Origin: a virus
Reading direction: 5' to 3' (one strand)
IMG/VR virus record: IMGVR_UViG_3300037137_000493
Span: 1 to 25,708 of that record
Length of the DNA: 25,708 nucleotides
Of the stretch, positions 1 through 22,473 are shown piece by piece. Below the pieces are notes generated by a model, which saw only the letters and a list, made by a program, of their open reading frames with translations, made no database searches and was not told the origin of the DNA. Both the position numbers and the translations under genes were made by a program. Positions within the stretch are counted from its first letter, which is position 1. Every line of letters starts with the position of its first letter.

Positions 1-555
1 CAGTTTGGGTTTGGTGCTACTGTGTTGGGTATTGACTGGGGTGCCGCTGGTACCACTGCAATGACGGTTGCACAGTATATGACAAATGAGGATGTTAATA
101 TTGTGTCGTACCATTCATTAACAGCACCATCGGACACTGATTGTTATCAATTGATAGCTGAGCTTGCTAAGAGATATAAAATTATGCAGGTGTTACCAGA
201 TAGTTCGCATGTATTTCAAAATATGCACATACAAAGAGAGCTTGGATTAGCAGTTAATCCAATCAATTTCACCACACAGAAAGAAGCTGGTGTTGGTGCG
301 ATGCGTATGAAGTTTGAACGTAGACAAGTGAAAATTCCAGAAAAGTATAGGTCCACACTTGGCAAAGATCTGAAGAATTGGCGTAGGGACTCTAATGGAA
401 ATATTATTAAAAAGAATGATCATGGTCCAGATTCATTGTTATGTGCGATGATTAATAGTATGTCGTTTGGTAGTGCTATGTCGTATTATTCAGATGATGG
501 AGATGTTGATATTAACAAAACTTACCATGATAGATGGTCGAATTCAATCTTTTAG
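1..555 (+). CDS. terL: Terminase large subunit, C-terminal nuclease part (5' partial)
   Basis: The reading frame is open from base 1 and ends with TAG, so the N-terminal ATPase half lies outside the window. What remains, about 184 codons, looks like the RNase H-fold nuclease domain that cuts concatemeric phage DNA during packaging. The expected acidic residues are visible. The first is the Asp of a GIDWG motif (codon 12), the second the Asp of LPDSSH (codon 67), and the third lies in a DHGPDSLLCAM motif near the C-terminus (codons 140 and 144). This spacing and the final D-x-x-D helix are typical of the family. A GTG at 22 could be read as a start, but the upstream codons continue the same beta-strand into GIDWG, so it is internal. 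The portal gene follows one gene later, the normal phage order. Assignment rests on motifs and synteny. Confidence 0.85.
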   Translation, partial: QFGFGATVLGIDWGAAGTTAMTVAQYMTNEDVNIVSYHSLTAPSDTDCYQLIAELAKRYKIMQVLPDSSHVFQNMHIQRELGLAVNPINFTTQKEAGVGAMRMKFERRQVKIPEKYRSTLGKDLKNWRRDSNGNIIKKNDHGPDSLLCAMINSMSFGSAMSYYSDDGDVDINKTYHDRWSNSIF

Positions 556-858: not shown

Positions 859-2892
859 ATGAGTTTGATAGATAGATTTTTCGGTACATCTAGACTAGAA
901 GAGTCAATGCTGGAAACGGAAACAGCTGTTGACCATCTAGAAAAATCCGTTGATGCTGCGAAGGAATTACATGAATCAGCGATGATTAATATGCTGAATG
1001 AATTGGAGTCAGAGAATACTGGGTGGCGTAACATTGGTAATGCTAATGACTCTATTAGAGATTTTACCACAGACACACATAGAGAATTGAGTAGGATGGC
1101 TTGGTCAGCAGTTATGACCAACCCAATCGCTGCTCGAGAGATTTTCTATAAGACGGTATTCGTTGCTGGTAAGGGGCTGCGTTGTACTTCGCAGATCCCA
1201 GAAATTCAAAAAGTGCTGGATGAATTTTGGACATCCACACGTAATAAGATTCCGTATTATGTACCCATGTATATTAATCGGTATAATATTGATGGTGAAG
1301 TATTCTTCGCGTTGTTTATTGATAAGAATACTGGTAAAGTTACACTGAGGGATATTGAACCACAAGAAATTACAGAGATTTTATTTGATCCAGATGATGC
1401 TGCAGTACCTGTCTATTTTAGGCGGCAGTTTTACAAGTCATCGGGGGCTAGAGGAGCTGGAGGGATTAGTGAAAGTAAGGATATTTGGTATAAGAGTATT
1501 GATTGTATCCAACATCCACAATTAGAAACAGAAGTTAAATTACCAGAAAATGCTGAGATAGCTGGTAAAGCCGAGTCAAATATTGATATTTTTGTATTCC
1601 ATTTTAAGAATAGTTTGCTTACCAATAGGCGCAGGGGGCTCTCTACGCTAACTAACCACCTACCATGGTTACGTGAGTATAAAGATATTCTTAGAACTAG
1701 GACTGGCATCAATAAAGCTCGCTCATCTTTCTTCCTTGACGTTATGATTAAAGGTGGAACGAAGGAGCAGATTAAGGCTGAGGCTCTAAAGCATAAATCA
1801 CCACCACGGCCTAATACTTGTGTTGTTCATGGTGATGATGTTGTTTATTCATTTTTGACACCTAATATTCAAGGTACTGATGTGCAGTCGGATTTAACAG
1901 AGATTAAGAACATGTCAGCTATTGGATCGATGTTACCACCAGATATTCTTGAAGGTGGTGGTGGAAAGTCTAATTACCAAAATTCTGGTAGAACCAAGTT
2001 TCCATTTTTGCGTTCAATGGAATTTCAGCAAGAACTATGGGAGTTTGCATTTAAATATGGGATTATGTGGGTTGTGGTTTGGGCAGCTACTGAGTATGGG
2101 GAGTTGCCAGAAAGTTTTAAAGTTGCGAAAAAGTTAAACATTTCTTCGTTGGCGTTGACGCAAGAAGGCGAGTTATATGACATAGAGACTATGGCAATAA
2201 TTAATAAGAAAACCACAAAAGTTGTTAAAGATTATCTAAGAGATATATTTGAAGCAGCAATGGTCCCACCTACTGGTATTACTGGTGCGCCAATGAATGG
2301 GCAGCAGCTTCCTGGGATGCCAGCACCTCAAGTACCACCAATGCCTGGCGGTGACCCAGCTAAGGCAGAAGGTATGATGGGTGATTACGTTGTAATTACA
2401 ATGAGTGAGGAAGTTGATGCAGTTGATTTGGTAGAGATTCAGTTTCCAAGAATTGATACAGAGAATCTTGGTGATATGGCGATGGCATTTCAGGCGTTTG
2501 ATGCAATGAAGATTGTATCTAAGCAAACACTTGCGAAGCTTGCTGGGTTTGATTATGCCAAGGAGAAAGAGCTAGTAGCACAGGAAACTGCTGAAGCAAT
2601 GAAGACGATGGCGGATCAACAGTCTCAATTGGCTGGTAATCCAGCTCTTGGTGGTGGAGTTAATCCGCCTCCTGGTGGGCCTAATCAGGTTGATGCAGGG
2701 ATGGGTGGTCCTCCTGGAATGCCACCGTCTCCTAATGCAGCTGGGCCTAACAATGAGGCTAGTAATATACAAGCAGTGTTGGCTGATATATTGAATCGTC
2801 CTGGTCGGTCTAAGAAACGTGGCCCAATTGCAGAGTCGCGCTTATCGGTAGCGCACAAATTAGTAGAGGCATTTCTGGTGGAGGATAAATAG
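859..2892 (+). CDS. Phage portal protein
   Basis: This 677-residue protein should form the dodecameric ring at one capsid vertex through which DNA enters and leaves. After an acidic coiled-coil start (about residues 10-50) come typical portal patterns: a helix-rich RELSRMAWSAVMTNP segment, then a NIDGEVFFALF strand followed by a T-G-K-V-T-L-R-D-I-E-P strand and an EITEILFDPD strand. Next is an FHFKN-x5-RRRGLS segment leading into a long helix, and an ILEGGGGKSNYQNSG loop. The C-terminal third is odd, with Pro/Gly/Met-rich tracts at about residues 470-511 and 594-634 and a basic tail, so it is longer than many portals. I chose ATG 859, preceded by GAGG at 848-851, over the in-frame TTG at 844, which has no ribosome binding site and follows directly on the previous stop. 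Its TAG overlaps the GTG start of the next gene by one base. Confidence 0.85.
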   Translation: MSLIDRFFGTSRLEESMLETETAVDHLEKSVDAAKELHESAMINMLNELESENTGWRNIGNANDSIRDFTTDTHRELSRMAWSAVMTNPIAAREIFYKTVFVAGKGLRCTSQIPEIQKVLDEFWTSTRNKIPYYVPMYINRYNIDGEVFFALFIDKNTGKVTLRDIEPQEITEILFDPDDAAVPVYFRRQFYKSSGARGAGGISESKDIWYKSIDCIQHPQLETEVKLPENAEIAGKAESNIDIFVFHFKNSLLTNRRRGLSTLTNHLPWLREYKDILRTRTGINKARSSFFLDVMIKGGTKEQIKAEALKHKSPPRPNTCVVHGDDVVYSFLTPNIQGTDVQSDLTEIKNMSAIGSMLPPDILEGGGGKSNYQNSGRTKFPFLRSMEFQQELWEFAFKYGIMWVVVWAATEYGELPESFKVAKKLNISSLALTQEGELYDIETMAIINKKTTKVVKDYLRDIFEAAMVPPTGITGAPMNGQQLPGMPAPQVPPMPGGDPAKAEGMMGDYVVITMSEEVDAVDLVEIQFPRIDTENLGDMAMAFQAFDAMKIVSKQTLAKLAGFDYAKEKELVAQETAEAMKTMADQQSQLAGNPALGGGVNPPPGGPNQVDAGMGGPPGMPPSPNAAGPNNEASNIQAVLADILNRPGRSKKRGPIAESRLSVAHKLVEAFLVEDK

Positions 2893-5800
2893 TGTCAGAC
2901 GCACAAGATCGATTTTTAAATGAGTATATTAGAATAGTACAGGAACAATCTGAAGCATCAAAGTATGTTGGTAGAGATGAAGAGGAAACAAAGAGGGTCT
3001 ATGAATTAGACGAACAGATGAGTAATCTGTTGGAGGAATATGCTGATATAGTTCGTCAGCGTCCAGACTATAAAGATAGTGATGTAGAAAGAGCACTAGA
3101 CGAATTAGAAAGTAGTGCCTTAGGTATTATTAGAACCAATACACTTGATCCAGTTGATGTGGTTGCTGCACATACCATTATTAATAAACCAATTGTTGAT
3201 GGTATAAATAGAGAAGCAATACGTGTGAGTGGTGTTGGTAATAGATTTGGGACGCTCGTTGTGGTTAGTAGTGGAAAACAGCAGTTTGCTATTGGTGCCG
3301 GTAATAGAAGTATGAATGCGTTTACTGCTGATGCTGGGTTTAGTCAGGTAGTTAGTGTTGAAGAAACTATACATATTAATGGATTACGCAAAAATCTGCG
3401 TGCAGTAAATGCAAATATTGAAAATTTACTTCGTGTTGTTGAATCAAAGGGGCGCATGACCATTGGTGGTGCCAATCCATATGTTGGATTGTCACGTGAG
3501 GTGTTGAGAGAGAAATATATAGAATTGATTGGCACTCGTACTAAACTGGAAGATGAAATTGGTGGGTTTGTTAGTAGATATTATACAGATGTTGTGTTGC
3601 CAAATGGTGATAGTGCATATACTAGACTATTGTCAGAAATGGTTAAACACAATCCAGATTTGAATTTGTGGACAGACAAAGCTAGCGCACTAATTTATGC
3701 ACAATATCCTACTGGTAGATTCTTACCATTAGCTAATGCATTTAAAGCAGCTAGTAATGTTGGATTTTTAGATGGAGATACTGAACAAGAAATTGGTGAG
3801 TTTATTTTAAAACGTGTTAAAATAGATGATCATTCATATGCAGAAATCTTATTGCACAAGCCAAGCAATAGGACGGTTGCTGTTATCCCGCCAATCAAGA
3901 AGCGTGCTGATTTAGAGAAGATATTAAATGGTAATAAGATTGACATGTTATTCATTGATGCACGTTATAGCAGTATGGGCGGATATTACGCTAGTGATCC
4001 TATATTAGCACAACGAACCAAGATGTATCTATCTTCCCAAGAAATTGGGAATATATTAGTGTCAACATATCAAGATAAGGTTCTTAGACCAGAGTCGGTT
4101 GTTTTAACTAATATTGATTATAATTTAGAGGCTGGAACGGTAGCCAAAGATATTGAATCAGGATTTAGTACTAGCACGAAAAATTTAAAAAAGGCAATAG
4201 TTAAATTATCACCAGTATCTAATGGTTATAATCCAGATATCTTTACTTTTGATGGAAACGAAGATGGAGTAGCGCATATTCCAGGTGTGTCAAATGAAAA
4301 AACTTATGATGATATTATACGTGGTGCGATGTTTAGGCGTAGAGAACGAGATTCAGCAAAGGCCACCGAATTACATGTAGACCTTGTGCATGCTGATGAA
4401 GAGCAGGTCGAACATATAGCAGATACTGTTGATGATCTTGCTAGGTTTGACACAGCAGACCTTGATATTCCTGGAGAAGAAGAAGTAGGTGAGTTTGCAA
4501 AAATTGGCCTAGAGGGCGATGCATACAATATAGTTGGTGGGCAAGAAATTGCCAATACTAGTGCCGAGGAATGGATTGATCTTAATGTAAGGCCAAAAGA
4601 TAGGAGCACAATAGAATCAAGGATTAATAAATTCAAGCTTAAGGCGAATGGCGTTGGCATTAAATTGGTTCCGGAAAAGGGTGAATTACCAACATCGAAA
4701 GGTATATTAAAAGGAGCAGTAATAAGCCAAGCCGCTTTTGATCAAAACATTGACTGGCAGGCAGTAAAGAATGTCAATGGTTCTCAGAAATATGTTTCAA
4801 GTACGCAGGCTAGGGTTGATTTTATTAATTTGATTAGGGATTATACCTGGGAAACTGAGGCGAGTGTTTTTGACGTTGGTGTTGATTGGATTAAACATAA
4901 AGATCAAGTACTTGATCTGGTCGTTACTTCAGACCGACTAGCAGATGATCGTAGTGTAAAAGATTTAGTTAAGATATTGAAGGGCAGGACTGCTAAGGAG
5001 TTTACTCTTTTAGATCGCAAAATTGTCCAAGATTTACCTACTAAGAATAAAAAACTTGTTCCAAGTTATATTGCACAAAGAAAATTGGTTATTGATAAAA
5101 TAAACAATATGACTAGGAGAGAAATTGAAAAAAGTGCTGAAGCACTTCGTACAGCGACATTACCAGAGACAATTACGCATCATAAAAATAATATCATAGC
5201 GTATACTGAATATCGTGATTGGGCAAATGGTAACCAGCATAATATTGATGTGGCCATTGGTAATTATCAGAAGATTAAAGATATTAGGGGAGTTAAGAAT
5301 GTTGTATTTACGGAGGAATTGGCCAATGGGTATATGCTTGATGGGCTGAGGGCCGAATTACATAGTAAATTTGAGCAACTAACAAAGATTAATGAAGCTA
5401 AATATAACTTTGATAGTCCATTTGAATTTGCGCGTAACATAGATAGAGTCAAAGAAGTGATACGTAAGATAGAGGGGACTGATAGGGTTAAAGCACCACA
5501 AGCCTACACTGCGCTAGTTAAAGAACTAGATAATGTGATGAGTTATTTCAATGGGGTTAATAGAGCGTTTGTTGAACCATCCGTACCTTTTGGTTTTGAT
5601 GTTATTGTTGGTGGTCGTGTAGCAAAAATAATGACAGAAATCAAGATATTACAGCCACCAATGCTGAGTCCGCTACATCCAAATGGACCATTTAAAACAC
5701 CACAAGATTTTATGGATTTCCAGGCTGACATCAATAGTATTGATGATATGATTAGAGAAGATACGGTCATATTAAGAGATGGCAATGATCTAAAGTTATT

Positions 5801-8800
5801 AGTAAATAAATATTTTAAATTAAAGGTTAATACATTTGCCAAAGAATTAGAAGAGTTAGAGGTAGCAGGAGAAGTTAAGAGATACAATGCAAAATTAGAA
5901 GAAGCAGCAGATTTTGTAATGAGCAGTCTTGGGTATATGCCAACAGAAGAACGACGCTTTGTATTACTCGATTTGGCTAATATAGAGAAGATCAAACATG
6001 ATGAATTTGTGCCAAAAGCTAGTATGATATTTGCTAGGGTTGATGAGGTAGTGAAGAAATCAACGACCAGATTAGTGAGTATGGTTGGCAAAACGCCCAT
6101 TACGGAGAGTAAGGCTAAGGTAGCAAGTAATAATATAATTAAACAATTGTTTAGTGAGCGAGAAACATTAAGTATCACATTAAATAATAGGATTGACGAA
6201 CTAACCAAATTAGAGTCTAGATTTGCTGCTATCGCTGCTAATATGCCAAAAGAGCATATGGGTGCTGTAGGCTCTATGTCAAATCCTGGCGATGAAAATA
6301 CCACAGAATTAAATTTATTAGACATGAGGCAACTAAAGAATAGACGGTTGTTAGTTAGAGATGAGATGTCAGATCTTCGTACACAAATTTTGAAAATAGA
6401 TTTGGATAAGTTTAATAGGTTTGATGCGACAGATCCATCATTATACACAAGTGATATACTTGGTACTGCTAATGCAATTAGGGCTGGAAAGATTAACCCA
6501 GAGGCTATTGCAGAAGTATCAGATATAATATCAGTGATTGATTATAAAAATCTTGAGAAATCAAGACTAATGATTGCTTTGCGTAAAATTCAAGAATTAC
6601 ACGAAAAACGCAGGATGACCATTAGTATATCAAGCAAGAAAAAGATAAATGATGAGATATTTGAGATTGTAAGTTCTGAAATGTCTCTATCAGATACACA
6701 CAAATATAAAGATGTAATATTACCGTCCATCGAGTTGGAGTGGCATTCAGATAGTGATATTGATAAGCATATAGCAATGGTAATAAATTCGATCGATTAT
6801 AGAATAGATGAGTTAGACACAGATATAAATAGAGCGGAAAAGGCTGTTCAGAGATTAAAGGGGTATGCGGCCAGAATTGATACTCCATTCAAAAACTTTG
6901 TGCGTGAAAGTATAATTGACGATCCGTTCAGAAGTACCGTTGGTCACATTGTATTACATTTGAATGCTAAGGAAGTTACTCGCACAGAGTTAGTACCACC
7001 TAGCTTAGTTACTGGTAGAGATGGTGGCGATGGACTACCGTTTGATTTGATGAAAAAATTCGGACTTTCTGGTAATAGGGGATTCTTGTTCCCAGATAGG
7101 GTTGGTAAGTTAGCAGTGTATAAATTGCATGTCCCTATGAGTGCCACCCCAGGACAGATTGAGTCATTAATTGTTGAGGCTGAAAGGCAGGCACACCATA
7201 GAAATATTAATCATTTGGTGGTTGAATTTCCAGCTGATTTATTTAGAGGATATATACCAGATCCAGAAGTACATCCAAAATTATATAGATACTTTACGCT
7301 TTCTAATGCTGACATCAAAAAGCAGATATTAACTGGGAAGGTATTCAGTGTAGCCAATAAGCCAATAATTATTGGTGCCGGATATCAATATGAAATATCA
7401 CCAGATATTAATCAAGTTAGACGCTTTAGAACTATAATTGCACAGGCTCAAGTAGAGGAATCTGCAGCTAGAAATGTTGAAAAGTTTATTGAGCCTAAGA
7501 CTCAACAAGATATTTATGATAGGATAAAATTGATTGTTGATGACATTGGTACGCCTGGGCAAAGAGCAATAATCAATGGTGAATTGCAGGCGTTGGGTGT
7601 AAAGGTACGTGAGGATCTTACTCCAACGATCACAACCGAAGTTGTAGCAGATAAGGCCAAAGGAGTTGATGTTAGCATCAGAGAAGGAGAAAACAAGTTA
7701 TTTAGTAGGTTTAAATCTATCATTACTCACAAATTTACTGATAAATGGGCATTAGTAGAAGCTGAGTTTCCGGTTATTGTTTATGTTGACCAAAATAACA
7801 ATATACGATCCACGAATCTTGGCGTATTAATGGCTGATGGTAGTTTAGATCCACACACTAAGGCAGCATTACGCACTGGTAAGGGATATTTACCTCATGA
7901 TGCTCAATATTCAGTAATTATTGAGGGTGGAGAGAATAATAGATTTAGGATTGGCAATGCTGCTGGCACGCTACCAAAAGAGATATCGTTTAATTCAATA
8001 GTCCATACAGCAACACAAATAATATCAAGTAAAACTAGAACACAATTTGTTACTGATTTCGCTGGGGTTGATGCAAAAATACAGACGTCTTTTGATGATA
8101 TGGATCGAGCTATTGCCAGGGTAAAAGGATTATCTAATACGGATCTAGAGCGTGTGACTCAAGCTGAAGAGCTGATAAAGGAGAATTTTAAGACGGCGCT
8201 TTTAGAAGCAGGCGGAGAGCGTAGTAAGGAAATAGAGGCCATTAAAGAATATAGAGATGGTATGCGTGGATTTTATCAGGGACTATTAAATGAAAAAGAA
8301 AATATGAAATGGTATAATTATGTAAAAGTAAAAAATGCGCACCTTGGTGAAGCCGGGCAGTTGATTTATGGCATTGAACCAGAAAAGGATGGAGAGATAA
8401 CTGTAGCTAGGAAAATTAGTAATGCCTTCGGTGTGTCGGTGTGGTTTGATCGTAGTGTGCCAGTCCAATCAGTGCCCACCACATTTATAGATGTACAAAT
8501 TAAGGATGCGTATGCTTTATTAGCTAAAGAACCCCATAGAGCTAATGAATTATATGCCAAACTAGACGCACTTAAAACTGCACGTTCGCAGTTTGTTAAT
8601 GTAGAAAGTAGAACGTTATTATTCAATCCATCATTAAATGCTATTTATAATAATTATATAATTAGGCAGCTTATTGATGTGGATTTGAAGCATGCACGTC
8701 AAACTGGTGACCTTGGTCTACAGGCGAGAATATCATCTCAGATTGAATTAATCCGTAATAGTATTAAGCAAGAAGAGGAACTCGCTAGTAAAATTCGTGC

Positions 8801-11800: not shown

Positions 11801-14800
11801 CAAAGACATAGTGTCTAATGAAATGGCTGCAGTGATTACATTAGATCAGGATTTTGTTGCATTGCGTGTTGCCAGTGAAGCAAGGGCGGCTAAAACAGTT
11901 CAATCATTAAAGGATAGTGTGCTCTATCATCCATATTTAAATTCTGATTTGGGTGAGGCTATTAGAGGTGTAGTTGATGGAATATTTGAGGCATCTGAGG
12001 GCAAGGATTTTGATCATACTAAGGCAAATAAGGTAGCAATTGAACTAGAACAATACTTACGTAGTGTTGGTATAAATATAAATTCTACATTTAAAGTTAA
12101 AGGATGGAACATACCAAAGTTACGTAAAGCGTTTAGTAAGATGTTAATAGTTGAAGCTGACTCGCCGGTATTTACTGCGGCATTACGGCAAGTTGCCAAG
12201 AAGAATGGGATAGTATTAGATGAATTTGCGCATGGTATTACCAATTCATTATTTGGGATGTCGGGTGTTTCTAAGGACCACTATGGTCGTGTAATAGTTG
12301 GGGCATTACGTAATTATATGGGCGCACGTACATATGAGTTTGTTTCTGCCTTCATGAATGGTTCTGTCGAAGTGCCATTCTTTGATTTATACCGTGGGCT
12401 AAGCACTAAGGAAGCAGAAGAATTTCGTAATTTATTCGCTCGTGAAGAGACACTCATAGGAACGGAACTTACTAGGTATCAAGAGCTTAAAAGAATAGCT
12501 GGGAAATTACGTGTAGCGCCTAAATATGATGCAGGCGACGAGATGGCAAAGGCTTATGTACGAGCCTATGGCTTGGATGATGGTACAATAGTCATAGCGA
12601 GTAATGAGGTTGTACATGATGTTAATTATGCCATACTTGAACCAAGATTTAGAATATTAAAGGTTTTTCATGAGAAGCCATACTCGAGAGTAGAGAAATA
12701 TTTATTTGAGAATTATAGTGCTGACAGGCAGAAATTTGCCCAGTTATTAATTGATCCCAAATATGATAGCCGTGGCCTAGTAGCATCGGTGTTTCGTGTT
12801 ATATTAAAAGAGAAATTTAATATAACTGTTGACCCCAAAATTCTAGATAATCCTGATGTAATTTTTGATCAATATAGGGAGAAGTTATCAAGTATTAGCC
12901 TATCAAAGATGATAGCTCATACTGCAGACCCAGAGGATATTGTTAAGAGCGAATTAAAAATTAATCCTGCTAGATGGGTTGATGCGTTTAATGATACTGG
13001 AGGTAGTGTACAAGAAGTATTTTTAAATATGGTGCGTGCTTCAGGTGTTAATGAAGGCACACTTAGAAAAAGTGATGAGTGGTACAGGGTGTACCAGCCT
13101 AAAATCTCTGCATATGGTACTATACATACTGAAAGAAGAAGGATAGGTGCCAGGGTTGCTCAATATGAAGCTGATATGTATGTTAGAGTTAATGGTAGGG
13201 CCCCACAGGGTGTTCAGATTGGACTTAATCCAAAGTCATTTGTAGAGTTTTTATTGAAGGGCACCATTGGAGAAGATGTTGCGGATTCCCTAAATAGATA
13301 CAAACAATTACCAGGTGTTATGGAATTAATAAAGAGAAATAATGATAGAAAGGTAGAGATTGAAGCTTTATTAAAACATGCAGAAACCGCTCCGGGATCA
13401 ATATCTATAGATGGAGGGACTTATACAATAGATAGTATGGATAGAGTTTTCAAGGCAGTAAGTAGTAAGACAAATAAAATCATAGATGATCTATATGATG
13501 TTGGGATTGTTGATCCAAGTTTAGCACCACTCAAAGACCCCAAACATATAGATGGTGCTAAAAAATTATTAGATAGGGCCGCATTGAACAGCGTAAATAA
13601 TACACTAAGTGTATCATATAAATATAACACATCAATTATGGACGATGTTCTAGAGAAGATAGCCATCAATGAGCGCAAATTGAATAGCATTCCATTTACC
13701 AAGGTGGAGTTTAAATTACAAGGTGATAAAAAGATAATCAACTGGATCGTAGAAAGCAAATTGTCAAATGGCACAACAGTAAATAGTCAGAATATCAAGG
13801 AAGAATTAGTAAAATTAAGGAAGGTACATGAAGAAGTAGTTGATATTGCTGAAAAGAGGATGATTCAAGCGGATATTGATAGGGTACAGATGTTGTCTGA
13901 CATATTAGATGATATATATAAATTATATGCCCAAAAGGATATATTAGACCAAGTGGTTCAAGAGTCTGGTGGGATATTAAAACATGTTGATCTCTATAAG
14001 GCACTTGAATCTATAAAGGTAGACCAAGAAACACAAGTAATGGTTGGGGCTCGTAGATTAGATAGGATTAAAGTTATCAATCAGCAATTAGAAGATCTAC
14101 GTAAAGAGTTTGGTGATGTTGATGCTTTAGCGGGACAATTAACTAGCGAGCAAAAGGCTGCAAAAAAGTTGCAGAAAAAGTTATTGACAGAATTGAATGG
14201 TGGGATTGACCCAAAAACTGGCGTAGAGATTGTTGGGTTGGCTACCCCTACGCCTGCTGTTACGGAAGTTATTGAGCAATCTGCATATGGTGGGTTAGTA
14301 CGACATACAGTTGATGAATTACGTGATGAATTAAAATTATTACATTCATCTGTAGAAGATTTAACTAGTTCAATTCCAAAACTTGAACAATTACGTATAT
14401 TCCAGAAACTTGTACGTCCAGTGCAATATATGGATAATGCAACTGGGCCAGAAATGATAAAGAATATTGAAACAATTATTGGAGAACTGAATAATACTAT
14501 TGCAGTGAAGAATAATGTTATACATGGATCAATGCCAAATCGGCAAAAATATATCACTAATATGATTATTGCTAGCACAGAGAAGTTTGAGGCTAAGATT
14601 AAGGCTCTTAGACAGGGAATAGAGATTGCAAAGACCAAGGGTAAAGAGGGACAGATAGAAGCTAATAGGTTATTAGTTGAGCTTAATAACTTAGTTGAGC
14701 GTTTAAATATTATTACTACAGGCAAGGGAAAGATGTTTATTGATAGTGATGAGTTATTGACAACATCGACTATTGATCGGGATATAGTCCTTGCATCTAG

Positions 14801-17800
14801 GGGTAGAGAAGCAGCATTAAAGCGTGGCGATTCTACTATGGCAACGAAATTTGCGGATGAGGTATTAAGGCTGCAAAAAATGCGTCCAGTGCATGCCACT
14901 ATCGAGCAAATAGACCTGCCAGCAGCTCTAAATAAGATAGCTGCTTTTGGTAAAAAGACTACGATGGAGCCAGCGGATTGGGCTGAGTACCAAGAATTAG
15001 TTGGTAGGCTGAACCGTATTACTAACGCTGGATTACATATAGAGATGAACGCTGAACAGATTAGAATATTTGATAGGATGGAAGCCTTATTTCTCCAAAG
15101 CAAGATAATGGGCACAGTAGGATGGATGGAATTATATAAAAAAGAATGGACTGAGTTAATAACTAAACTTGATGAAGTTAGTGATACATTTATGGGTGCC
15201 AGGTATATTAATTCTACCTATCATAATCTTGGGTTAATGATGCAACGGGACATGAGTATTGATCAGATATTATTAAAATGGAGTGAAGATGCCAAAAGTG
15301 TATTAGATCCCAAGACACAGAGGGCAATAGAATTAGTAGTTAAACCACTTGACGCTAATGGGAAGAAAGTAGTTGCTAAGGAATTGGCAGTATGGAGGGG
15401 ACTACTAAACGAATTAGAAAATAAGCCTGTTACAGATGATAAGTCATATAATATGTTATTAGGGTTATACACTAATAAGGTAGAATCTTTAGAGACACGG
15501 TTAAATGGTGAAACACAGCGTGGGTTTAGAAAATATAATGAAGTATTTCAAATATTAGAGAATGCGCTTAGAGGTGGTGTTAATGAGGAGGGGCAAAGAT
15601 TTAAGGGATTAGTGCCTGAGCGTGAAGCCATTATAGAGCAATTAAATGCTTTAAATACTAGAATTAGTGAACAAAATGGGCTTATAGCACAAAAGTACAC
15701 TATTAATAAGGAAATGATACGAGTTAATAAGGAAATCCCTGATTTAAATAGTCCACTGCGACAACAGTTATTTGATGAGCTAGACAGTAGGCTAGAAAAA
15801 GTTGAACGTTTGATTATGGATGATGCTGGATTAAAGGCTGCAAAGGAAGAGCAATTAGCATTACAAGTAAGACAAGCCAAGGCACAAAAACAAATTGATA
15901 AGATTGAGGCTACATTAAAATTAACACTTAATAAGGGCACGGTGTTTTATCAGGGCAATGTGCAGCAATTTAAAAATGTGGCCCTAGCAATGGATTTAGA
16001 TGATTTTGAAGCAGACTACATTAAAAATATGGGCAATGAATTTTCGGAGTCAATTAATAAATTTTTAGATGGAATGGAGAATAGAGTACGAAAAGCAGCT
16101 AGTGTTGTAAAGCAAGAAGTTGATCCTAGAATTATTACCCAGATTGAACATTTACGTACGTATGTTAGCTTAAGTGATGTGCCAGCTATCGACGCAATCC
16201 AGGCTGTAGTTGATGAAATGACTTATTTGGGAGCATATTCAATACCAAATGGTGAGGAATTAACTGACACTGTTGCCAGATATAAAGTTGCAGTAGAATT
16301 TTGGGATAGTGGACCAGTTAAATGGCCCACTACAATGTTAACTGACTATGATTCGTCAGTGGCGAGATTAACAGAAGCCAGAAAAGAGTACGAAAGATTA
16401 TTGGCCAAATTAAAGCCTGGTGTTGAAATGACAGATATTCAAATTCAGGCTATGAATGATTATTTTGATAGATTGTTTACTACTGAGGCGACTAAAGCAG
16501 ATAGGAAAGCGTTTAATCTTGGTATGGAATTCTTATCTGGGCGTGGATTCGATTGGACTAAGCATCCATCTTTAGAGGCTGGTCAGGCAGCTAGGGCCAA
16601 GCTGATAAAGCAAATGGACCCAGATATGGCCAAGGCATTTATAAATGCAGAGAATAGAATTAAAAAGATGGAAGGTGCTGAGTATATTGATAAAAATATG
16701 GATGCCACTAAGTTACTGGCAGACATAAAAGTTCAATCAGATATTGGTCATGCTCGGGCAAGAATAGCAAAATATCGTGCTGAAGTTATGTTGTTGCAGA
16801 ATATGTCAGTTTATAATGACGTCGAAGTATTAACTAGGGAATCTAAGAGCCTAATTAATGCGCGGGACTTATTATCTGTGTATAAGGATGTTATTGATAG
16901 TGTTGAACGATTTGATGGTCACGAGATCAAAATCCCAGGAAAAGCGCAGGTTATTAATGTAAATACAGAATTGGTCAAGAAATTAGCTAATACATTTGAA
17001 CGTAATATCTACATAACCAAGATTAGCAATGGAGTGCCAGTCCGTGAATTAGTAGAATCAATAAATAAAGATGCTGTGATGGCAAAATTAACCGATGAAC
17101 GGATGCGCATATTAAGAAATATTACTAATGATATATCCAATAAGGTAGTTAAGGCGACTGGGGATGTGCTAGAATTTACTGATGAGAATATACGTAATGC
17201 GTATGCATTATTAGGTAGTGAGGGCGTGGTCCCGGTCCATAATTACTTCGGCATTGCAGATATTAGTAAGGATGGTACCAATCAATTCGTACCGGTTATT
17301 AATGGAAGTGTTATTCTCCCAGAACAAAAACCTTTAGGGATGATTATTGACACATCATGGCGTGACCCATTTGCCATGAAACCTAGTACTGGTACAGTAG
17401 AGTCGCAGTTATTGTCTGAGTATTTAAAATCATCATTACAATATTCTGATAATATGACAATTCAAGATACGTTTAAAACTGTGGTTAATTTGACGATGGT
17501 TGACAAGGTAGGGCGTATAGCAAAAGTTATGCGCGAAGGTGCGCCATATGAGAGCACAATATTAAATACACTAAATAAGGCTGTAGGAGCGTCGTTGCTT
17601 GGTGGGGTTATGGTGGCCAAGGTCTCGAGAGATCTTGTTAGAAGAGTAGACTTATCATTGCAGGCAGTTAATGGATTTGTTAATAGCTTATTGGATGGTG
17701 TATCTAAGGATTCGGTTGCCATGTTGTATGAACATGCTGCAAAAGCACGTTCGCAGTATCAAAAAGGGGCTAAATATGTAAAATGGTTCGGTGGGCATGG

Positions 17801-20624
17801 AGATATTGGGTCATTATTAAAAAAGATGGCTACTAATGCTGGTATTAAGCATGGTACATCATTGTTTAATATTGCCAATGAATTATTCGCTGAAGAGACA
17901 AGAAGAACTATGGTAGGACTTAAGAATATTGTAAATACAGCAGCATCAAGTGCTTACTTCCTTGGTGCTAGGGCTACATCGAATTCATTAGAGGAGATTG
18001 CTACAGTTGCACAGCCTATTCCATGGAAACTAGATGGCGAGGCACTAAAGGCTATGTGGAGTGAGGTTGATAATAAGGTAGAAAATTGGCAAGAAACAAT
18101 GTTTGATAAGCGTGCTGATACTATTATTAATAGGTTGCTTGGTAGGGTAAATAAGGCTGGTAATGATATGAATAGAAAGATGTCGCAAGGTGTTATGCCA
18201 GCATTAGCAGTTGGTGGTGCTACTAAAGAAGTACAGGCGGCATATACTAGGGCTGGGCAGGATTTAGAAGGATTAATCAGCGATTCAGGGTATACTGCAT
18301 TGAATCAGGTTGCAATGTCTAATTTTGTTGATAATGCTGACCAAATAAGGTGGTTTGAATATACTGCAATAAATGATTCAAGAACATGTAAATACTGCAG
18401 GTCTACTCATGGGGTACTATATCGGCCTAACGAGCCAAGGCCTGAGTTACCACGGCATCCAAATTGTAGATGTGTATATCGTCCATGGTTTAAATCTGTA
18501 TCAAATGCAGCAGAAGAGATGGAGGCAGAGATACGTAAACCAAGAGTAGCTATCGGGCAGACATTTAATATCGGCCCAGATGATTTCGCAGGATTTGGTG
18601 ATGGCCTGAGCAAATTAGTTAGACCAGTTAATGCTGATGGTACTATTAGTGATGAAGATTGGATTATGTGGTTTAATAAACAGCCATTTGATATTAGGCA
18701 GATGATGGTCGGAGATGTACACAATATGGCGAATGCGCTTGGTGTATTTGGTGTGGACTCGCCTGTTGATAAAAAAGCTTTCATAGTAAATGCAAGTAAA
18801 AATATTGCAAAGACGTTTGCTAAGGATATGACGAAAAATACCATTAGGCAAACAGTATATAATACGTTAACTGATGGATCGGTTTTGCAGGCTATAGCTG
18901 ATATAGCTAGTGATCCAAAAAATGCCGCGTCAATATTAGCAAAGGTGCCATTTAGAAGGTTAATGTTTAAGAAAGGTGGCGTATTACAAACTTCTTCTGC
19001 TGAAGCATTTAATAGATCTGTTGGTGGGCTTATGCCCATAGACCCAAATGAAATAGGTCCTTTACAGATGCTGATCAGTCGTATTACTGGAGATAAGACT
19101 GTTGGCAAAATTGCCAAATTTATGAAGCCTTGGGGTACAACAGTGATGGCTAAATTGGCCCATATGACACCTGAGGAATGGGCCACATGGGGGCCAGTGT
19201 TGGGTGGTGATGTTAGCCCTAAGACTCTAGAGGATGCTTACGCAAGGGCTACTGGTAATAAGCATGGTAATGAAGACAAGACTAAGGGCGCTATGCATGG
19301 TACGATGCAGGCGTTTGATGCTTGGTTTAATGTGATAGGTGAGGGATTAGCTCCCATGGCAGATATGTCGATTGCTAGCAGAACTAAAATTTTTGAAGAT
19401 TTGGCAAAGGACATAGCAGCATTACCAGAAATAGAGGCTGTAAATGCTAGATTACGTGGCATTTTGCGTAATAAGGAGCATGTAAGTAATAATATGTTTA
19501 CTACCTTAAAAATGAGTGATGACGCAATATATAGAATGCAAGATTCACTTAGTAACGTATCGATTACGGCAGAATCTGATGCCATTCCGACCAAGGAAGT
19601 ACTTGATATCTATGGGCAACTAATGCGTACACAAAGGTCAAGTGCTAAGGGTTTATTAGAAGATGAGGTATTAAAGGAAAGGTTGGTACGTTTGCCATCA
19701 AAGCAGAGGACTTTATTGGTTGATACATATTTAACAGACCCGACCATGAAAGCAAAGGTCCAGCGATTCTTTATTGATACCACAGTTAATAATACTGCCT
19801 TATTGGAGGCCATCAGAATTAGATCAGTTGGCTCTAATGGGGTGGTATTGGCCACAAAAAATATCACCAGTGGAACGGTGAGGGTTACTATCGGGCCAGA
19901 TGGGAAAATGTATAATGCTTCCAAGCAGGATCTTGAGTATTTGTGGAGGAAAATCGATCCAAAAACTGACACATCTAAATTTGTTTCTATGGACATCAAT
20001 ATTGGTGGCAATGTTACTGAGAATCCAGCCTATTTGGACTGGCAGAAGACAGTTGGGGCTAATTTGGAGAGGAAGCCATACACAGACATACAAGGTGTAA
20101 AGACTAGGAAGAAGGCTATTGAATCAATGCCAACAAGGAAAACGTTTGGCGAATATGAGTACGAAATTGTATTAGAAAATAAGGATGATGCAGTCAATAA
20201 TCGTAGTAATGTTCAAACTGCGATTATGAATATTGATGGAGTCCATACATTCTCAGCATCATCTAAGGTTAGTGTATTACTAGAAAAGGGAGTACTGAAG
20301 GTAGGAGAAGGTGATTCAAGTTCATATGCCTATAAGAAGAAATATTCAGAAGCCATTATTAAGATTGAGTCTATAATTGATAAAACTGTACGTAAGAAGG
20401 ATGAGTTGAAGTTGGATAAACGTAATACTATGGTTAGGATTGGTGATGAGAAAATCCAAGAAATTGCCACATTGGTTCGTAGTAATATTGGTGATATATT
20501 AAATCCAAAGGGTGAATTTAAAGATGTTCATACTGGCATTAAGCAATTTGTTGGTGACGTTGAAAATAGTGAAGCGTTCTTAAATAGGATCCGAATTGCG
20601 GTCAATAAGGTGTATAATGTGTAA
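2892..20624 (+). CDS. Giant 5910-residue MuF-domain head-associated protein
   Basis: A single uninterrupted frame of 5910 codons, roughly 650-660 kDa by average residue mass. It starts at GTG 2892, seven bases after GGAGG (2880-2884), overlapping the portal stop. Its only domain I recognise with confidence is a MuF/SPP1 gp7-type minor head domain at about residues 5044-5200, with C5166-x2-C5169, H5173, H5189 and HPNCRC (C5192, C5194). About 700 residues follow it. The rest holds long coiled coils (about 2206-2516, 2655-2739, 2875-2943, 3724-3840, 4211-4365) and unrecognised alpha/beta segments (about 317-370, 1332-1505, 1620-1708, 3160-3275). No signal peptide or clear membrane span is seen. 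On reading the whole translation I found cysteine only in the MuF motif. The gene occupies the minor head protein slot between portal and protease. It could be an internal virion protein, an ejected polyvalent cargo protein, or a polyprotein cut by the neighbouring protease. Confidence 0.9.
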   Translation: MSDAQDRFLNEYIRIVQEQSEASKYVGRDEEETKRVYELDEQMSNLLEEYADIVRQRPDYKDSDVERALDELESSALGIIRTNTLDPVDVVAAHTIINKPIVDGINREAIRVSGVGNRFGTLVVVSSGKQQFAIGAGNRSMNAFTADAGFSQVVSVEETIHINGLRKNLRAVNANIENLLRVVESKGRMTIGGANPYVGLSREVLREKYIELIGTRTKLEDEIGGFVSRYYTDVVLPNGDSAYTRLLSEMVKHNPDLNLWTDKASALIYAQYPTGRFLPLANAFKAASNVGFLDGDTEQEIGEFILKRVKIDDHSYAEILLHKPSNRTVAVIPPIKKRADLEKILNGNKIDMLFIDARYSSMGGYYASDPILAQRTKMYLSSQEIGNILVSTYQDKVLRPESVVLTNIDYNLEAGTVAKDIESGFSTSTKNLKKAIVKLSPVSNGYNPDIFTFDGNEDGVAHIPGVSNEKTYDDIIRGAMFRRRERDSAKATELHVDLVHADEEQVEHIADTVDDLARFDTADLDIPGEEEVGEFAKIGLEGDAYNIVGGQEIANTSAEEWIDLNVRPKDRSTIESRINKFKLKANGVGIKLVPEKGELPTSKGILKGAVISQAAFDQNIDWQAVKNVNGSQKYVSSTQARVDFINLIRDYTWETEASVFDVGVDWIKHKDQVLDLVVTSDRLADDRSVKDLVKILKGRTAKEFTLLDRKIVQDLPTKNKKLVPSYIAQRKLVIDKINNMTRREIEKSAEALRTATLPETITHHKNNIIAYTEYRDWANGNQHNIDVAIGNYQKIKDIRGVKNVVFTEELANGYMLDGLRAELHSKFEQLTKINEAKYNFDSPFEFARNIDRVKEVIRKIEGTDRVKAPQAYTALVKELDNVMSYFNGVNRAFVEPSVPFGFDVIVGGRVAKIMTEIKILQPPMLSPLHPNGPFKTPQDFMDFQADINSIDDMIREDTVILRDGNDLKLLVNKYFKLKVNTFAKELEELEVAGEVKRYNAKLEEAADFVMSSLGYMPTEERRFVLLDLANIEKIKHDEFVPKASMIFARVDEVVKKSTTRLVSMVGKTPITESKAKVASNNIIKQLFSERETLSITLNNRIDELTKLESRFAAIAANMPKEHMGAVGSMSNPGDENTTELNLLDMRQLKNRRLLVRDEMSDLRTQILKIDLDKFNRFDATDPSLYTSDILGTANAIRAGKINPEAIAEVSDIISVIDYKNLEKSRLMIALRKIQELHEKRRMTISISSKKKINDEIFEIVSSEMSLSDTHKYKDVILPSIELEWHSDSDIDKHIAMVINSIDYRIDELDTDINRAEKAVQRLKGYAARIDTPFKNFVRESIIDDPFRSTVGHIVLHLNAKEVTRTELVPPSLVTGRDGGDGLPFDLMKKFGLSGNRGFLFPDRVGKLAVYKLHVPMSATPGQIESLIVEAERQAHHRNINHLVVEFPADLFRGYIPDPEVHPKLYRYFTLSNADIKKQILTGKVFSVANKPIIIGAGYQYEISPDINQVRRFRTIIAQAQVEESAARNVEKFIEPKTQQDIYDRIKLIVDDIGTPGQRAIINGELQALGVKVREDLTPTITTEVVADKAKGVDVSIREGENKLFSRFKSIITHKFTDKWALVEAEFPVIVYVDQNNNIRSTNLGVLMADGSLDPHTKAALRTGKGYLPHDAQYSVIIEGGENNRFRIGNAAGTLPKEISFNSIVHTATQIISSKTRTQFVTDFAGVDAKIQTSFDDMDRAIARVKGLSNTDLERVTQAEELIKENFKTALLEAGGERSKEIEAIKEYRDGMRGFYQGLLNEKENMKWYNYVKVKNAHLGEAGQLIYGIEPEKDGEITVARKISNAFGVSVWFDRSVPVQSVPTTFIDVQIKDAYALLAKEPHRANELYAKLDALKTARSQFVNVESRTLLFNPSLNAIYNNYIIRQLIDVDLKHARQTGDLGLQARISSQIELIRNSIKQEEELASKIRAINHTNSMMFGLVDDRGQFLGAQKLFALRQFKESLTPTDADKLRRLEQQYMQLITYTSNQTQLAKDIDNMLSYKVDASNIADWFKLRHHVAKSVYTEWRSNLDGALARVLPKSVDFKSTINGTTEDYVKIFTNRDTLKDQVADTKKLLKQIIGKYKEKISSSGVSEYAKEFRQLQANLEALVEKRTKIIERWTSSYSNITMSGNPEMISDLIIKQLHNGIPIFDDGLATRMKYVLRARLDELGHLKNDGADVDSKITSLQAEIEGFDAINKENMLRGATRYGLDKTEQEIVAIKDRLAVLTTDIDKMPYAEEMRVLNAQVYQHEELLVSLNSELSSVELRIKNLPSVIATNAQFIHVSKIQRLDQIAQLEQQLGVLNNNYSKASGEDVVRIKASINKVESEIVVLREAIVADADQVKEAEENLAKNILQYDEVKVANSQYIRDQIAHHRTNLYDAERRIRPEIAANIKKLEDTLHSKDLRDQLVSVLTEIGVVQSERRKLLEKTDAFWYERNRTLFMGERASARLAELDGKIVALRSRAVELSGQMSTIDPFYTPQMLGHDVGVLKKVYGNLIKAITPVPYERKTVAEANLLEMYVKKYVQTQFQRKFDEAAVGVGEIISSAAVGKKVKEDVVAGILTKLKTKSISDFVFLDGKFNDEFIKEVLAGDKPTVDVGVVRGQITVQKVKISDINLKIKAYEDAIVSKKSLSDVLKDRLRALDVRFLGVDVDKPLTKDNIITLKERIKDLKDEIIELKTTIAKEEKEIRQAGKLVPLFVGMRELTDTAGKPFKERMDRISAVHDKYILKDIVVFIESQKIMVPSAGVWDEKLGSMVDVGKMVPLEVEYDLMQQFDTALNFDKPLKNMVEGFTERYADKFDVVSVDRFKLLTLLSRGVDKKSLMVNIRVVEKKAHDLNVALIKNQIDLKAAQDALPGADNLQRYNLGRRITSLSRKQAAIETELSGYEELVAVGKAFNARSDDIVHLSKIVPFKEDVLSFLQLSLAKDIVSNEMAAVITLDQDFVALRVASEARAAKTVQSLKDSVLYHPYLNSDLGEAIRGVVDGIFEASEGKDFDHTKANKVAIELEQYLRSVGININSTFKVKGWNIPKLRKAFSKMLIVEADSPVFTAALRQVAKKNGIVLDEFAHGITNSLFGMSGVSKDHYGRVIVGALRNYMGARTYEFVSAFMNGSVEVPFFDLYRGLSTKEAEEFRNLFAREETLIGTELTRYQELKRIAGKLRVAPKYDAGDEMAKAYVRAYGLDDGTIVIASNEVVHDVNYAILEPRFRILKVFHEKPYSRVEKYLFENYSADRQKFAQLLIDPKYDSRGLVASVFRVILKEKFNITVDPKILDNPDVIFDQYREKLSSISLSKMIAHTADPEDIVKSELKINPARWVDAFNDTGGSVQEVFLNMVRASGVNEGTLRKSDEWYRVYQPKISAYGTIHTERRRIGARVAQYEADMYVRVNGRAPQGVQIGLNPKSFVEFLLKGTIGEDVADSLNRYKQLPGVMELIKRNNDRKVEIEALLKHAETAPGSISIDGGTYTIDSMDRVFKAVSSKTNKIIDDLYDVGIVDPSLAPLKDPKHIDGAKKLLDRAALNSVNNTLSVSYKYNTSIMDDVLEKIAINERKLNSIPFTKVEFKLQGDKKIINWIVESKLSNGTTVNSQNIKEELVKLRKVHEEVVDIAEKRMIQADIDRVQMLSDILDDIYKLYAQKDILDQVVQESGGILKHVDLYKALESIKVDQETQVMVGARRLDRIKVINQQLEDLRKEFGDVDALAGQLTSEQKAAKKLQKKLLTELNGGIDPKTGVEIVGLATPTPAVTEVIEQSAYGGLVRHTVDELRDELKLLHSSVEDLTSSIPKLEQLRIFQKLVRPVQYMDNATGPEMIKNIETIIGELNNTIAVKNNVIHGSMPNRQKYITNMIIASTEKFEAKIKALRQGIEIAKTKGKEGQIEANRLLVELNNLVERLNIITTGKGKMFIDSDELLTTSTIDRDIVLASRGREAALKRGDSTMATKFADEVLRLQKMRPVHATIEQIDLPAALNKIAAFGKKTTMEPADWAEYQELVGRLNRITNAGLHIEMNAEQIRIFDRMEALFLQSKIMGTVGWMELYKKEWTELITKLDEVSDTFMGARYINSTYHNLGLMMQRDMSIDQILLKWSEDAKSVLDPKTQRAIELVVKPLDANGKKVVAKELAVWRGLLNELENKPVTDDKSYNMLLGLYTNKVESLETRLNGETQRGFRKYNEVFQILENALRGGVNEEGQRFKGLVPEREAIIEQLNALNTRISEQNGLIAQKYTINKEMIRVNKEIPDLNSPLRQQLFDELDSRLEKVERLIMDDAGLKAAKEEQLALQVRQAKAQKQIDKIEATLKLTLNKGTVFYQGNVQQFKNVALAMDLDDFEADYIKNMGNEFSESINKFLDGMENRVRKAASVVKQEVDPRIITQIEHLRTYVSLSDVPAIDAIQAVVDEMTYLGAYSIPNGEELTDTVARYKVAVEFWDSGPVKWPTTMLTDYDSSVARLTEARKEYERLLAKLKPGVEMTDIQIQAMNDYFDRLFTTEATKADRKAFNLGMEFLSGRGFDWTKHPSLEAGQAARAKLIKQMDPDMAKAFINAENRIKKMEGAEYIDKNMDATKLLADIKVQSDIGHARARIAKYRAEVMLLQNMSVYNDVEVLTRESKSLINARDLLSVYKDVIDSVERFDGHEIKIPGKAQVINVNTELVKKLANTFERNIYITKISNGVPVRELVESINKDAVMAKLTDERMRILRNITNDISNKVVKATGDVLEFTDENIRNAYALLGSEGVVPVHNYFGIADISKDGTNQFVPVINGSVILPEQKPLGMIIDTSWRDPFAMKPSTGTVESQLLSEYLKSSLQYSDNMTIQDTFKTVVNLTMVDKVGRIAKVMREGAPYESTILNTLNKAVGASLLGGVMVAKVSRDLVRRVDLSLQAVNGFVNSLLDGVSKDSVAMLYEHAAKARSQYQKGAKYVKWFGGHGDIGSLLKKMATNAGIKHGTSLFNIANELFAEETRRTMVGLKNIVNTAASSAYFLGARATSNSLEEIATVAQPIPWKLDGEALKAMWSEVDNKVENWQETMFDKRADTIINRLLGRVNKAGNDMNRKMSQGVMPALAVGGATKEVQAAYTRAGQDLEGLISDSGYTALNQVAMSNFVDNADQIRWFEYTAINDSRTCKYCRSTHGVLYRPNEPRPELPRHPNCRCVYRPWFKSVSNAAEEMEAEIRKPRVAIGQTFNIGPDDFAGFGDGLSKLVRPVNADGTISDEDWIMWFNKQPFDIRQMMVGDVHNMANALGVFGVDSPVDKKAFIVNASKNIAKTFAKDMTKNTIRQTVYNTLTDGSVLQAIADIASDPKNAASILAKVPFRRLMFKKGGVLQTSSAEAFNRSVGGLMPIDPNEIGPLQMLISRITGDKTVGKIAKFMKPWGTTVMAKLAHMTPEEWATWGPVLGGDVSPKTLEDAYARATGNKHGNEDKTKGAMHGTMQAFDAWFNVIGEGLAPMADMSIASRTKIFEDLAKDIAALPEIEAVNARLRGILRNKEHVSNNMFTTLKMSDDAIYRMQDSLSNVSITAESDAIPTKEVLDIYGQLMRTQRSSAKGLLEDEVLKERLVRLPSKQRTLLVDTYLTDPTMKAKVQRFFIDTTVNNTALLEAIRIRSVGSNGVVLATKNITSGTVRVTIGPDGKMYNASKQDLEYLWRKIDPKTDTSKFVSMDINIGGNVTENPAYLDWQKTVGANLERKPYTDIQGVKTRKKAIESMPTRKTFGEYEYEIVLENKDDAVNNRSNVQTAIMNIDGVHTFSASSKVSVLLEKGVLKVGEGDSSSYAYKKKYSEAIIKIESIIDKTVRKKDELKLDKRNTMVRIGDEKIQEIATLVRSNIGDILNPKGEFKDVHTGIKQFVGDVENSEAFLNRIRIAVNKVYNV
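6885..7406 (+). other. Unrecognised alpha/beta segment of the giant protein (residues 1332-1505)
   Basis: Between helical stretches the giant protein has a section with alternating predicted strands and helices. It includes a HIVLHLN strand, a Gly/Asp-rich TGRDGGDG loop at residues 1374-1381, an AVYKLHV strand, a NHLVVEF strand followed by LFRGY, and a KPIIIGAGY strand. A second beta-rich part follows at about residues 1620-1708 (7749-8015). The pattern looks like a folded domain rather than coiled coil. I do not recognise the family and assign no activity. Confidence 0.35.
9507..10439 (+). other. Longest coiled-coil tract of the giant protein (residues 2206-2516)
   Basis: About 310 residues with almost no Pro or Gly and regular Leu/Ile/Val spacing among Glu, Lys, Gln and Arg, for example SKITSLQAEIEGF, RLDQIAQLEQQLGVL, KKLEDTLHSKDLRDQLVSVL and SARLAELDGKIVALRSR. 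This heptad-like pattern indicates an extended coiled coil or helical bundle. Similar shorter tracts recur through the protein, so much of it is probably long helices. This is a reading of residue patterns; no coiled-coil score was calculated. Confidence 0.6.
12369..12716 (+). other. Possible degenerate ADP-ribosyltransferase-like segment (residues 3160-3275)
   Basis: The segment begins with FFDLYRGLS (Arg at residue 3168). It continues through KLRVAPKYDAGDEMAKAYV to FRILKVFHEK, about 70 residues later. An aromatic-R-G strand, then a strand followed by a helix of the A-K-A-Y type, then a short hydrophobic strand, is the order found in R-S-E class ADP-ribosyltransferases, which are often fused to MuF domains. 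However, the Ser-x-Ser motif is not where expected and no E-x-E is evident. It may be an inactive or unrelated fold, so this is only a lead. Confidence 0.2.
18021..18491 (+). other. MuF / SPP1 gp7-type minor head domain (residues 5044-5200 of the giant protein)
   Basis: This domain starts with helices (WKLDGEALKAMWSEV, then MFDKRADTIINRLLGRV) and ends in a strand pair and Cys/His cluster: DSRTCKYCRSTHG followed after about 13 residues by PRHPNCRC. D-S-R-T-C-x2-C with H-P-N-C-R-C is the signature of the MuF family (phage Mu gp30, SPP1 gp7). These proteins sit with the portal and are needed for head morphogenesis, and SPP1 gp7 also affects DNA ejection. The four cysteines and two histidines probably hold a metal ion. 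The domain is normally part of a protein of a few hundred residues, not near the end of one of 5910. Confidence 0.85.
20613..20618 (+). promoter_or_regulatory. Candidate -10 box before the capsid operon
   Basis: A perfect TATAAT lies within the last codons of the giant gene, about 80 bases before the protease start. No convincing -35 hexamer sits 16-18 bases upstream, so if used it may need a phage-encoded activator or may be coincidence in AT-rich DNA. A separate promoter here would let the capsid genes be expressed far above the giant gene, which their stoichiometry demands. Confidence 0.3.
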
Positions 20625-20681: not shown

Positions 20682-20688
20682 GGGGAGG
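20682..20688 (+). promoter_or_regulatory. Ribosome binding site deciding the TTG start of the protease
   Basis: GGGGAGG lies eight bases before TTG 20697. The other in-frame candidate, GTG 20688, overlaps the last G of this site and so cannot be served by it. Confidence 0.65.
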
Positions 20689-20696
20689 TGTCCGCA

Positions 20697-21957: not shown

Positions 21958-22473
21958 ATGGCTCAGAACTTTGTCCAAGACGGCATTACACTGCAGGCTC
22001 CAGTGGCCTATGGTGCAAGTGGGGTTACCAAGATTTACACTGGTACTCCAATTGTACTATCGGCTGGTGGGATAGCCCCAGGGGCCGCGCCTGCTACAGC
22101 AGCGACTGGTATTGATGGTATTGCAATGAATAACTGCGCATATGTTCCTGATGCCAATGTTTATCTAACAAGCACTTGCGTATATCGAACTGAAGGAGTT
22201 TTTACCTTTAAGGTAAAAAATGCGACTACGTTTGTTCTTGGTGCTACAGCGTATCTTGATTTAGTTGATAATTCAACAGCGACAGTGGTTGATGAGCAGA
22301 TAGGCGCTAGAACTACAGTTACAAACCTTGCTGGTTGTTCTGCTACGGAGCCAGCGATTGGTACGGTTGTTGCCCTTGGGTCTATAAAAGGGTTTAGTAC
22401 TACAGTTGGCACTGATTACGTTCAAGTTAAGATCGTAACCCGTGCAAATAGTAATTTAGCGGCACATTCGTAA
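21958..22473 (+). CDS. DUF2190-like capsid decoration protein, copy 1
   Basis: A 171-residue protein beginning MAQNFVQDGITL, with AGGAGG (21945-21950) seven bases before the ATG. The N-terminus, the strand pattern and the GVFTFKVKN-x10-Y-LDL core match DUF2190 proteins, which are found beside phage capsid genes and are thought to bind the outside of the shell and stabilise it. It is the most divergent of three tandem paralogs, 9-12 residues longer than the others, with extra residues near residues 30-45. Two cysteines 14 positions apart (C60, C74) are conserved in all three copies. The gene ends in tandem in-frame stops TAA TAG. It lies 28 bases after the scaffold gene. Confidence 0.8.
   Translation: MAQNFVQDGITLQAPVAYGASGVTKIYTGTPIVLSAGGIAPGAAPATAATGIDGIAMNNCAYVPDANVYLTSTCVYRTEGVFTFKVKNATTFVLGATAYLDLVDNSTATVVDEQIGARTTVTNLAGCSATEPAIGTVVALGSIKGFSTTVGTDYVQVKIVTRANSNLAAHS

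Follow-up and report, generated by a model that had tools for sequence, protein, structure and literature searches.

The window, a complete virus record of 25,708 bases (25.7 kb) and hence a metagenomic fragment, carries a single gene for a protein of 5910 amino acids (~664 kDa), which, judging from its sequence and by analogy with known ejected proteins, is probably an internal virion protein that docks at the portal through a MuF domain and is threaded into the host at infection. The gene (2892..20624, + strand) starts with GTG and contains no internal stop. It is preceded by a ribosome-binding site, GGAGG (2880..2884, + strand), which is kept in all three lineages in which the gene was found; in the same three lineages, the portal stop and the start of the giant gene overlap in TAGTG, the first base of the GTG being the last base of the stop codon. 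The remaining two same-strand frames contain 493 and 899 stops over the length of the gene, which excludes a chance open frame. The single intact 17.7-kb frame after the portal, to which the preliminary description of this DNA had drawn attention, is thus borne out, and the homologs on five further contigs are open too. We conclude that the giant is a real and unusual gene; on one of the related contigs (G004; 178,008 bases), it takes up about 10% of the sequence.

The relatives were retrieved with the MuF region as query, which yielded five further, separately assembled IMG/VR contigs (G001–G005). The giant frame is unbroken in all five, with 5784 codons from stop to stop in G001 and G002 and 5841 in G003, G004, and G005, corresponding to proteins of 5783 and 5840 amino acids, respectively. 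These contigs fall into two related lineages, represented by G002 (112,589 bases) and G004, with the window forming a third; within a lineage, the contigs differ by 0–17 bases across ~20–22 kb. The search of phage metagenomes for homologs in the same gene slot, suggested in the preliminary description, has accordingly produced two divergent lineages beyond the window. The window giant is collinear end to end with its counterparts in G002 and G004; in a three-way alignment, 47% and 37% of its residues are identical to those of G002 and G004, respectively (50% and 40% in pairwise alignments). The dN values of 0.42–0.57, combined with near-saturated dS (1.7–1.8), indicate that the protein is constrained, with purifying selection along its length. 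For the portal, scaffold-like, and capsid proteins, dN is 0.07–0.15, so that the giant diverges 3–7 times faster; its length is kept within about 2% across the three lineages. As a separate observation, the giant is nearest to that of G002 (50%), yet the portal, scaffold-like, and capsid proteins are nearest to those of G004 (about 82–88%), and exchange of the giant gene between the three lineages compared is possible. Profile scans found no lineage beyond these three, scans of genome contigs gave no match, and the non-MuF parts matched nothing in isolated phages. The N-terminal 700 residues used as a single query matched no viral contig, because the exact-peptide patterns missed existing relatives.

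The genes surrounding the giant form a head module in the order terminase end, small CxxC protein, portal, giant, protease/scaffold-like protein, decoration proteins, and Mu-T-like major capsid protein. The first gene (1..555, + strand) is cut by the window edge and probably encodes the C-terminal part of the terminase large subunit; this assignment is based on sequence and on synteny with G004, the fragment having no PHROG match of its own. In G004, the portal is preceded by a 984-residue TerL with an intein signature (L019:6893-9847). Intein signatures were also observed in the ribonucleotide reductase (L018:2948-6508) and an AAA ATPase (L016:9339-11540) of this contig; the terminase match is below its curated cut-off, and two of the three also match LAGLIDADG. 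Between the terminase and portal genes lies a gene (565-843) for a protein of 92 residues with several CxxC pairs, likely zinc-binding. The portal protein (859..2892, + strand; 677 residues from ATG) shares 79–81% identity with its counterparts in the two related lineages. Downstream of the giant are the protease/scaffold-like head protein (20688..21929, + strand; 413 residues; phrog_29592 with E 4e-11 and a weak match to phrog_172), three tandem paralogs of a head decoration protein (21958-22473, 22504-22992, and 23018-23497, + strand; phrog_122), and the major capsid protein (23525..24550, + strand; phrog_4523, E 2e-76), which is 84–87% identical in the related lineages. The decoration gene between the protease/scaffold and capsid genes is present in three copies in the window and in one copy each in G004 and G002. 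The slot between portal and protease assigned to the giant in the preliminary description is therefore the one it occupies. The tail module of G004 encodes an Ig-like major tail protein followed by a tape-measure candidate of 1674 residues (L012:5639-10663) devoid of cysteine, which matched nothing in PHROGs, Pfam, or isolated phages. Given these two genes and the lack of a sheath among the scanned tail-module genes of G004, the phage looks like a large siphovirus with a long non-contractile tail. The giant itself was considered as a tape measure and rejected, since it sits in the head module and G004 has the separate 1674-residue candidate.

The only recognisable domain of the giant lies near its C-terminus, as had been proposed from the window alone. 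The helical lead-in and the MuF/SPP1 gp7 domain span residues 4950-5196 (17739..18479, + strand), with a core at about 5100-5196, and score above the cut-offs of both Pfam (PF04233, 34.8 bits versus 29.6) and NCBIfam (TIGR01641 phageSPP1_gp7, 47.8 versus 39.65). In BLASTP, the MuF region matches a 349-residue MuF protein of Serratia phage Smarc3 (E 8e-13), and the block 5101-5250 is the best-conserved part of the giant in the three-way alignment. Within the domain, the motif C-x2-C ... H ... H-P-x-C-x-C (residues 5166-5194; 18387..18473, + strand) is invariant and of the zinc type. Thus, by its domain, supported by matches to curated family models and by a gene adjoining the portal in the head module, the giant is a member of the MuF/gp7 family, although not of the few-hundred-residue length that is usual, if not strictly defining, for that family: the MuF frames of the head-module relatives Blf4, Mae-JY22, and Smarc3 have 291–353 residues, whereas those of the giants have 5784–5911. 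The domain is preceded by about 5,100 residues, in agreement with the long upstream stretch described before, and followed by a C-terminal extension of about 710 residues (5200-5910; 18489..20621, + strand), which lacks cysteine and has a conserved DWIMWFN block at its start.

The N-terminal region (residues 1-4950; 2892..17741, + strand) contains no recognisable domain and no cysteine and is predicted, at low confidence, to be largely helical. Apart from MuF, searches of the giant against Pfam, PHROGs, and NCBIfam recognised no domain, and neither a transmembrane segment nor a domain of enzymatic or channel-forming type was found; residues ~2330-2512 show a coiled-coil-like resemblance to SMC (TIGR02169, E 4e-6), with a score far below the cut-off. 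A sequence search of solved structures with three profiles gave no match at E <= 1, and comparison of the non-MuF parts with proteins of N4, T7, P1, crAss001, P23-45, and DSS3 returned nothing beyond weak scores and, in the case of N4 gp66, matches of a coiled-coil-like kind. AlphaFold models built from three sequences (pLDDT 54 and 44) are too poor for the fold to be read; they consist mostly of helix, with a small low-confidence alpha/beta patch near residues 1352-1445. Three candidate activities were rejected. For an ADP-ribosyltransferase at residues ~3165-3255 (YRGLS ... EPRFRIL), the three homologs do not all keep the core motifs, and residues 2851-3460 gave a helical model of poor quality (pLDDT 54); for a metallopeptidase, no HExxH is aligned in the three homologs; and for an RNA polymerase, there is neither an aligned DxDxD nor a polymerase match, although a very divergent single-subunit enzyme could still be accommodated. 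A P-loop GK[ST] likewise has no aligned counterpart across the homologs. The ~5,000 unassigned residues constitute a conserved family without a description in any of the libraries searched.

An indication of what this chain may do comes from its cysteine content. Each of the three giant homologs has exactly four cysteines, all within the C-x2-C ... C-x-C part of the MuF motif (residues 5166, 5169, 5192, and 5194 in the window), and the ~5,900 residues outside the motif contain none. From the rest of the genome, 92 cysteines would be expected in the giant of G004 (P ~1e-34) and 107 in that of G002 (P ~1e-40). The phages' own head proteins (portal, scaffold-like, decoration, and capsid) have 6.25 cysteines per 1000 residues, which leads to an expectation of ~36 outside the motif versus none observed (P ~1e-16). 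Base composition is not the cause, since TGT/TGC occurs 4 times in frame over the gene, and the two remaining frames have 136 and 380 such triplets. Among the large genes of G004, the next strongest depletion after the giant is that of the tape-measure candidate (0/1674). Compared with the remaining genes of G002 and G004, the giants contain 0.04 times the cysteine, 0.49 times the tryptophan, and 0.60 times the histidine. The lack of cysteine in an N4-like virion RNA polymerase (vRNAP) was noted earlier (PMC4837373), and near-absence of cysteine is indeed found in the ejected proteins of N4 (vRNAP 0/3500; gp51 and gp52, none) and T7 (gp15 0/747; gp16 0/1318), in the cargo of crAss001 (gp46, none; gp47 1/2341; gp49 1/1349; gp50 3/2412), and in the fused tape measure and vRNAP of P23-45 (0/5002). 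In DSS3_VP1, the only two cysteines of the 1463-residue MuF fusion lie within the MuF motif. Large external or tail proteins, by contrast, retain cysteine (N4 gp65 11/1382; crAss001 gp44 10/1371), and replication enzymes have 11–14 per 1000. The giant shares this near-absence, which is not exclusive to ejected cargo: the T7 gp9 scaffold, the N4 capsid protein, and several P23-45 structural proteins also have no cysteine, proteins of Thermus phages may be poor in cysteine generally, and P1 DarB, a presumed injected protein, contains 9 cysteines among 2255 residues. The pattern is thus suggestive of ejection rather than proof of it; a cysteine-free chain would presumably benefit if it had to unfold and maybe cross an oxidising compartment.

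On the mechanism that we favour, the MuF domain would dock a few copies of the giant at the portal, on its interior side, during procapsid formation, and the ~5,000 residues before the domain and ~700 after it would be stored in the head alongside the DNA. At infection, the chain, in an at least partly unfolded state, would thread its way out via the portal and down the long non-contractile tail into the host, where it would presumably help genome entry or early takeover. We infer the docking from SPP1 gp7, and the ejection from composition and analogy. Rapid divergence in dN at a kept length and the lack of cysteine in the separate tape-measure candidate also speak for ejection. The lack of any recognised enzymatic or channel-forming domain and of a transmembrane segment speaks against it. 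Known ejected giants are mostly from short-tailed phages, and the apparently long tail counts against ejection, as each copy would have to pass an additional ~660-kDa chain through the tube that is also used by the tape measure. SPP1 gp7 is bound to the portal, targeted to the procapsid interior, and present in few copies; assembly proceeds without it, and it increases infectivity and supports the start of infection (PMC6316719). The vRNAP of N4, present in 4 +/- 1 copies, exits via the tail in published models with its fold wholly or partly lost (PMC12633501), and for the cargo of crAss001, which has a storage room of about 5 MDa in the head, partial unfolding upon ejection was proposed (PMC10172136). 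These loads imply that heads can hold a mass of the order of the giant, eight copies of which would amount to 5.3 MDa.

The preliminary description had offered three roles, namely scaffold, DNA-organising core, and ejected cargo, of which the cysteine pattern favours the last. A retained core or scaffold, anchored by MuF, that gives order to the DNA or the procapsid in the portal region and remains in the emptied head, would fit the position of the gene between those for the portal and the protease/scaffold and capsid proteins, the near-constant length in the three lineages, the mostly helical character with its sub-threshold SMC-like match, and the low cysteine that is frequent among virion structural proteins. 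However, cysteine is depleted even in comparison with the phages' own head proteins, the giant evolves several times faster than the portal, scaffold, and capsid proteins, and MuF proteins, being of low copy number and dispensable in SPP1, are unlike scaffolds (PMC6316719), which together make this role unlikely. It is likewise unlikely, and somewhat more so, that the giant is a polyvalent protein for anti-defence or takeover as understood by Iyer et al. 2017, in which MuF would package a string of numerous effector domains for injection against host defences. Fusion to MuF is a recognised route for packaging effectors (PMC5512222), the quick divergence at conserved length would suit such a protein, and no other job for 5,000 residues is obvious; but polyvalent proteins carry at least two recognisable effector domains, MuF is the sole domain recognised here in Pfam, PHROGs, and NCBIfam, although others may be hidden, the structure models being of poor quality, and the HExxH, DxDxD, and GK[ST] motifs are not conserved. 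This possibility shares the ejection step with our main explanation and differs in the cargo. A virion polyprotein cut by the head maturation protease, such that the MuF-bearing fragment alone stays at the portal, is very unlikely: although the protease/scaffold-like gene adjoins the giant and the internal head proteins DarA and DdrB of P1 are processed (PMC5512222), the giant shows no repeat units or internal duplication (profile–profile comparison of windows, best probability 15%). Finally, an assembly or annotation artefact, i.e., joined contigs or a spurious frame, for which the origin of the window as a metagenomic fragment would speak, has a negligible chance of being the explanation, because an intact, collinear frame recurs on five more, separately assembled contigs, with three divergent lineages represented, and the giant is thus no assembly join.

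If the ejected-cargo explanation is correct, protein ejection, which is best studied in short-tailed phages, would extend to a large siphovirus-like phage and a chain of ~660 kDa, and MuF would be a portal tether for payloads of nearly any size on either side of the domain. The lack of cysteine outside a metal-binding motif would then be a cheap, sequence-only predictor of ejected virion proteins and help to pick injected proteins among the many unannotated large proteins of phages. We also entertain, more tentatively, that the giant founds a distinct class: a ~660-kDa cysteine-free chain, tethered by MuF near its C-terminus, pulled through a long tail tube, and endowed with activities that belong to no known family.

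The closest relatives by domain are SPP1 gp7 and other MuF proteins, with which the giant shares the family domain, the cysteine/histidine motif, and a gene directly after that of the portal; unlike those of 291–353 residues, it has ~5,100 residues before the domain and ~710 after. The MuF fusion of DSS3_VP1, a head morphogenesis protein (L050:7509-11900; 1463 residues, frame of 1510), has MuF at its N-terminus and an extension of ~1200 residues. In MuF toxins and polyvalent proteins, MuF serves to address the payload fused to it, whose delivery to the host has been proposed (PMC5576092, PMC5512222). In MuF toxins, the domain is N-terminal and the toxin C-terminal (PMC5576092), the reverse of the giant, in which the payload is mainly N-terminal and no toxin family was detected in Pfam, PHROGs, or NCBIfam; furthermore, MuF toxins are often followed by a small ORF (<150 residues), whereas the next gene here encodes the 413-residue head-like protein. 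The likeness to polyvalent MuF fusions suggested previously fits in part, as no second recognisable domain turned up and the domain order is opposite to that of MuF toxins. The earlier statement that no described system matches the giant in detail stands within what was searched, with the qualification that close functional analogues exist. The vRNAP of N4 (gp50; 3500 residues) is likewise huge and cysteine-free, and it is internal to the virion and ejected; no sequence relation was found, the giant has no RNA-polymerase match, and N4 is short-tailed with a vRNAP that has no annotated MuF domain, whereas the giant has one and the tail genes point to a siphovirus. The cargo proteins of crAss001 (gp45, gp46, gp47, gp49, and gp50) are stored in the head, with gp45 docking on the portal (PMC10172136); they form a set of individual proteins, of which three are associated with RNAP, rather than one chain, and show no homology to the giant beyond chance-level scores. 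The fusion of Thermus phage P23-45, gp96, a tape measure joined to a virion RNAP, is of similar size and also free of cysteine, and, as part of the virion, should enter the envelope of the cell (PMC10770324), but it is a tape measure with DFDGD, whereas the giant is no tape measure and has no conserved DxDxD. At 5,002 residues, gp96 is the largest of the phage virion proteins compared here, and the giant exceeds it. Collectively, these comparisons indicate that, in composition, the giant is an analogue of ejected proteins, and that what is new, as far as its sequence tells, is its size and the placement of the payload mainly N-terminal to MuF.
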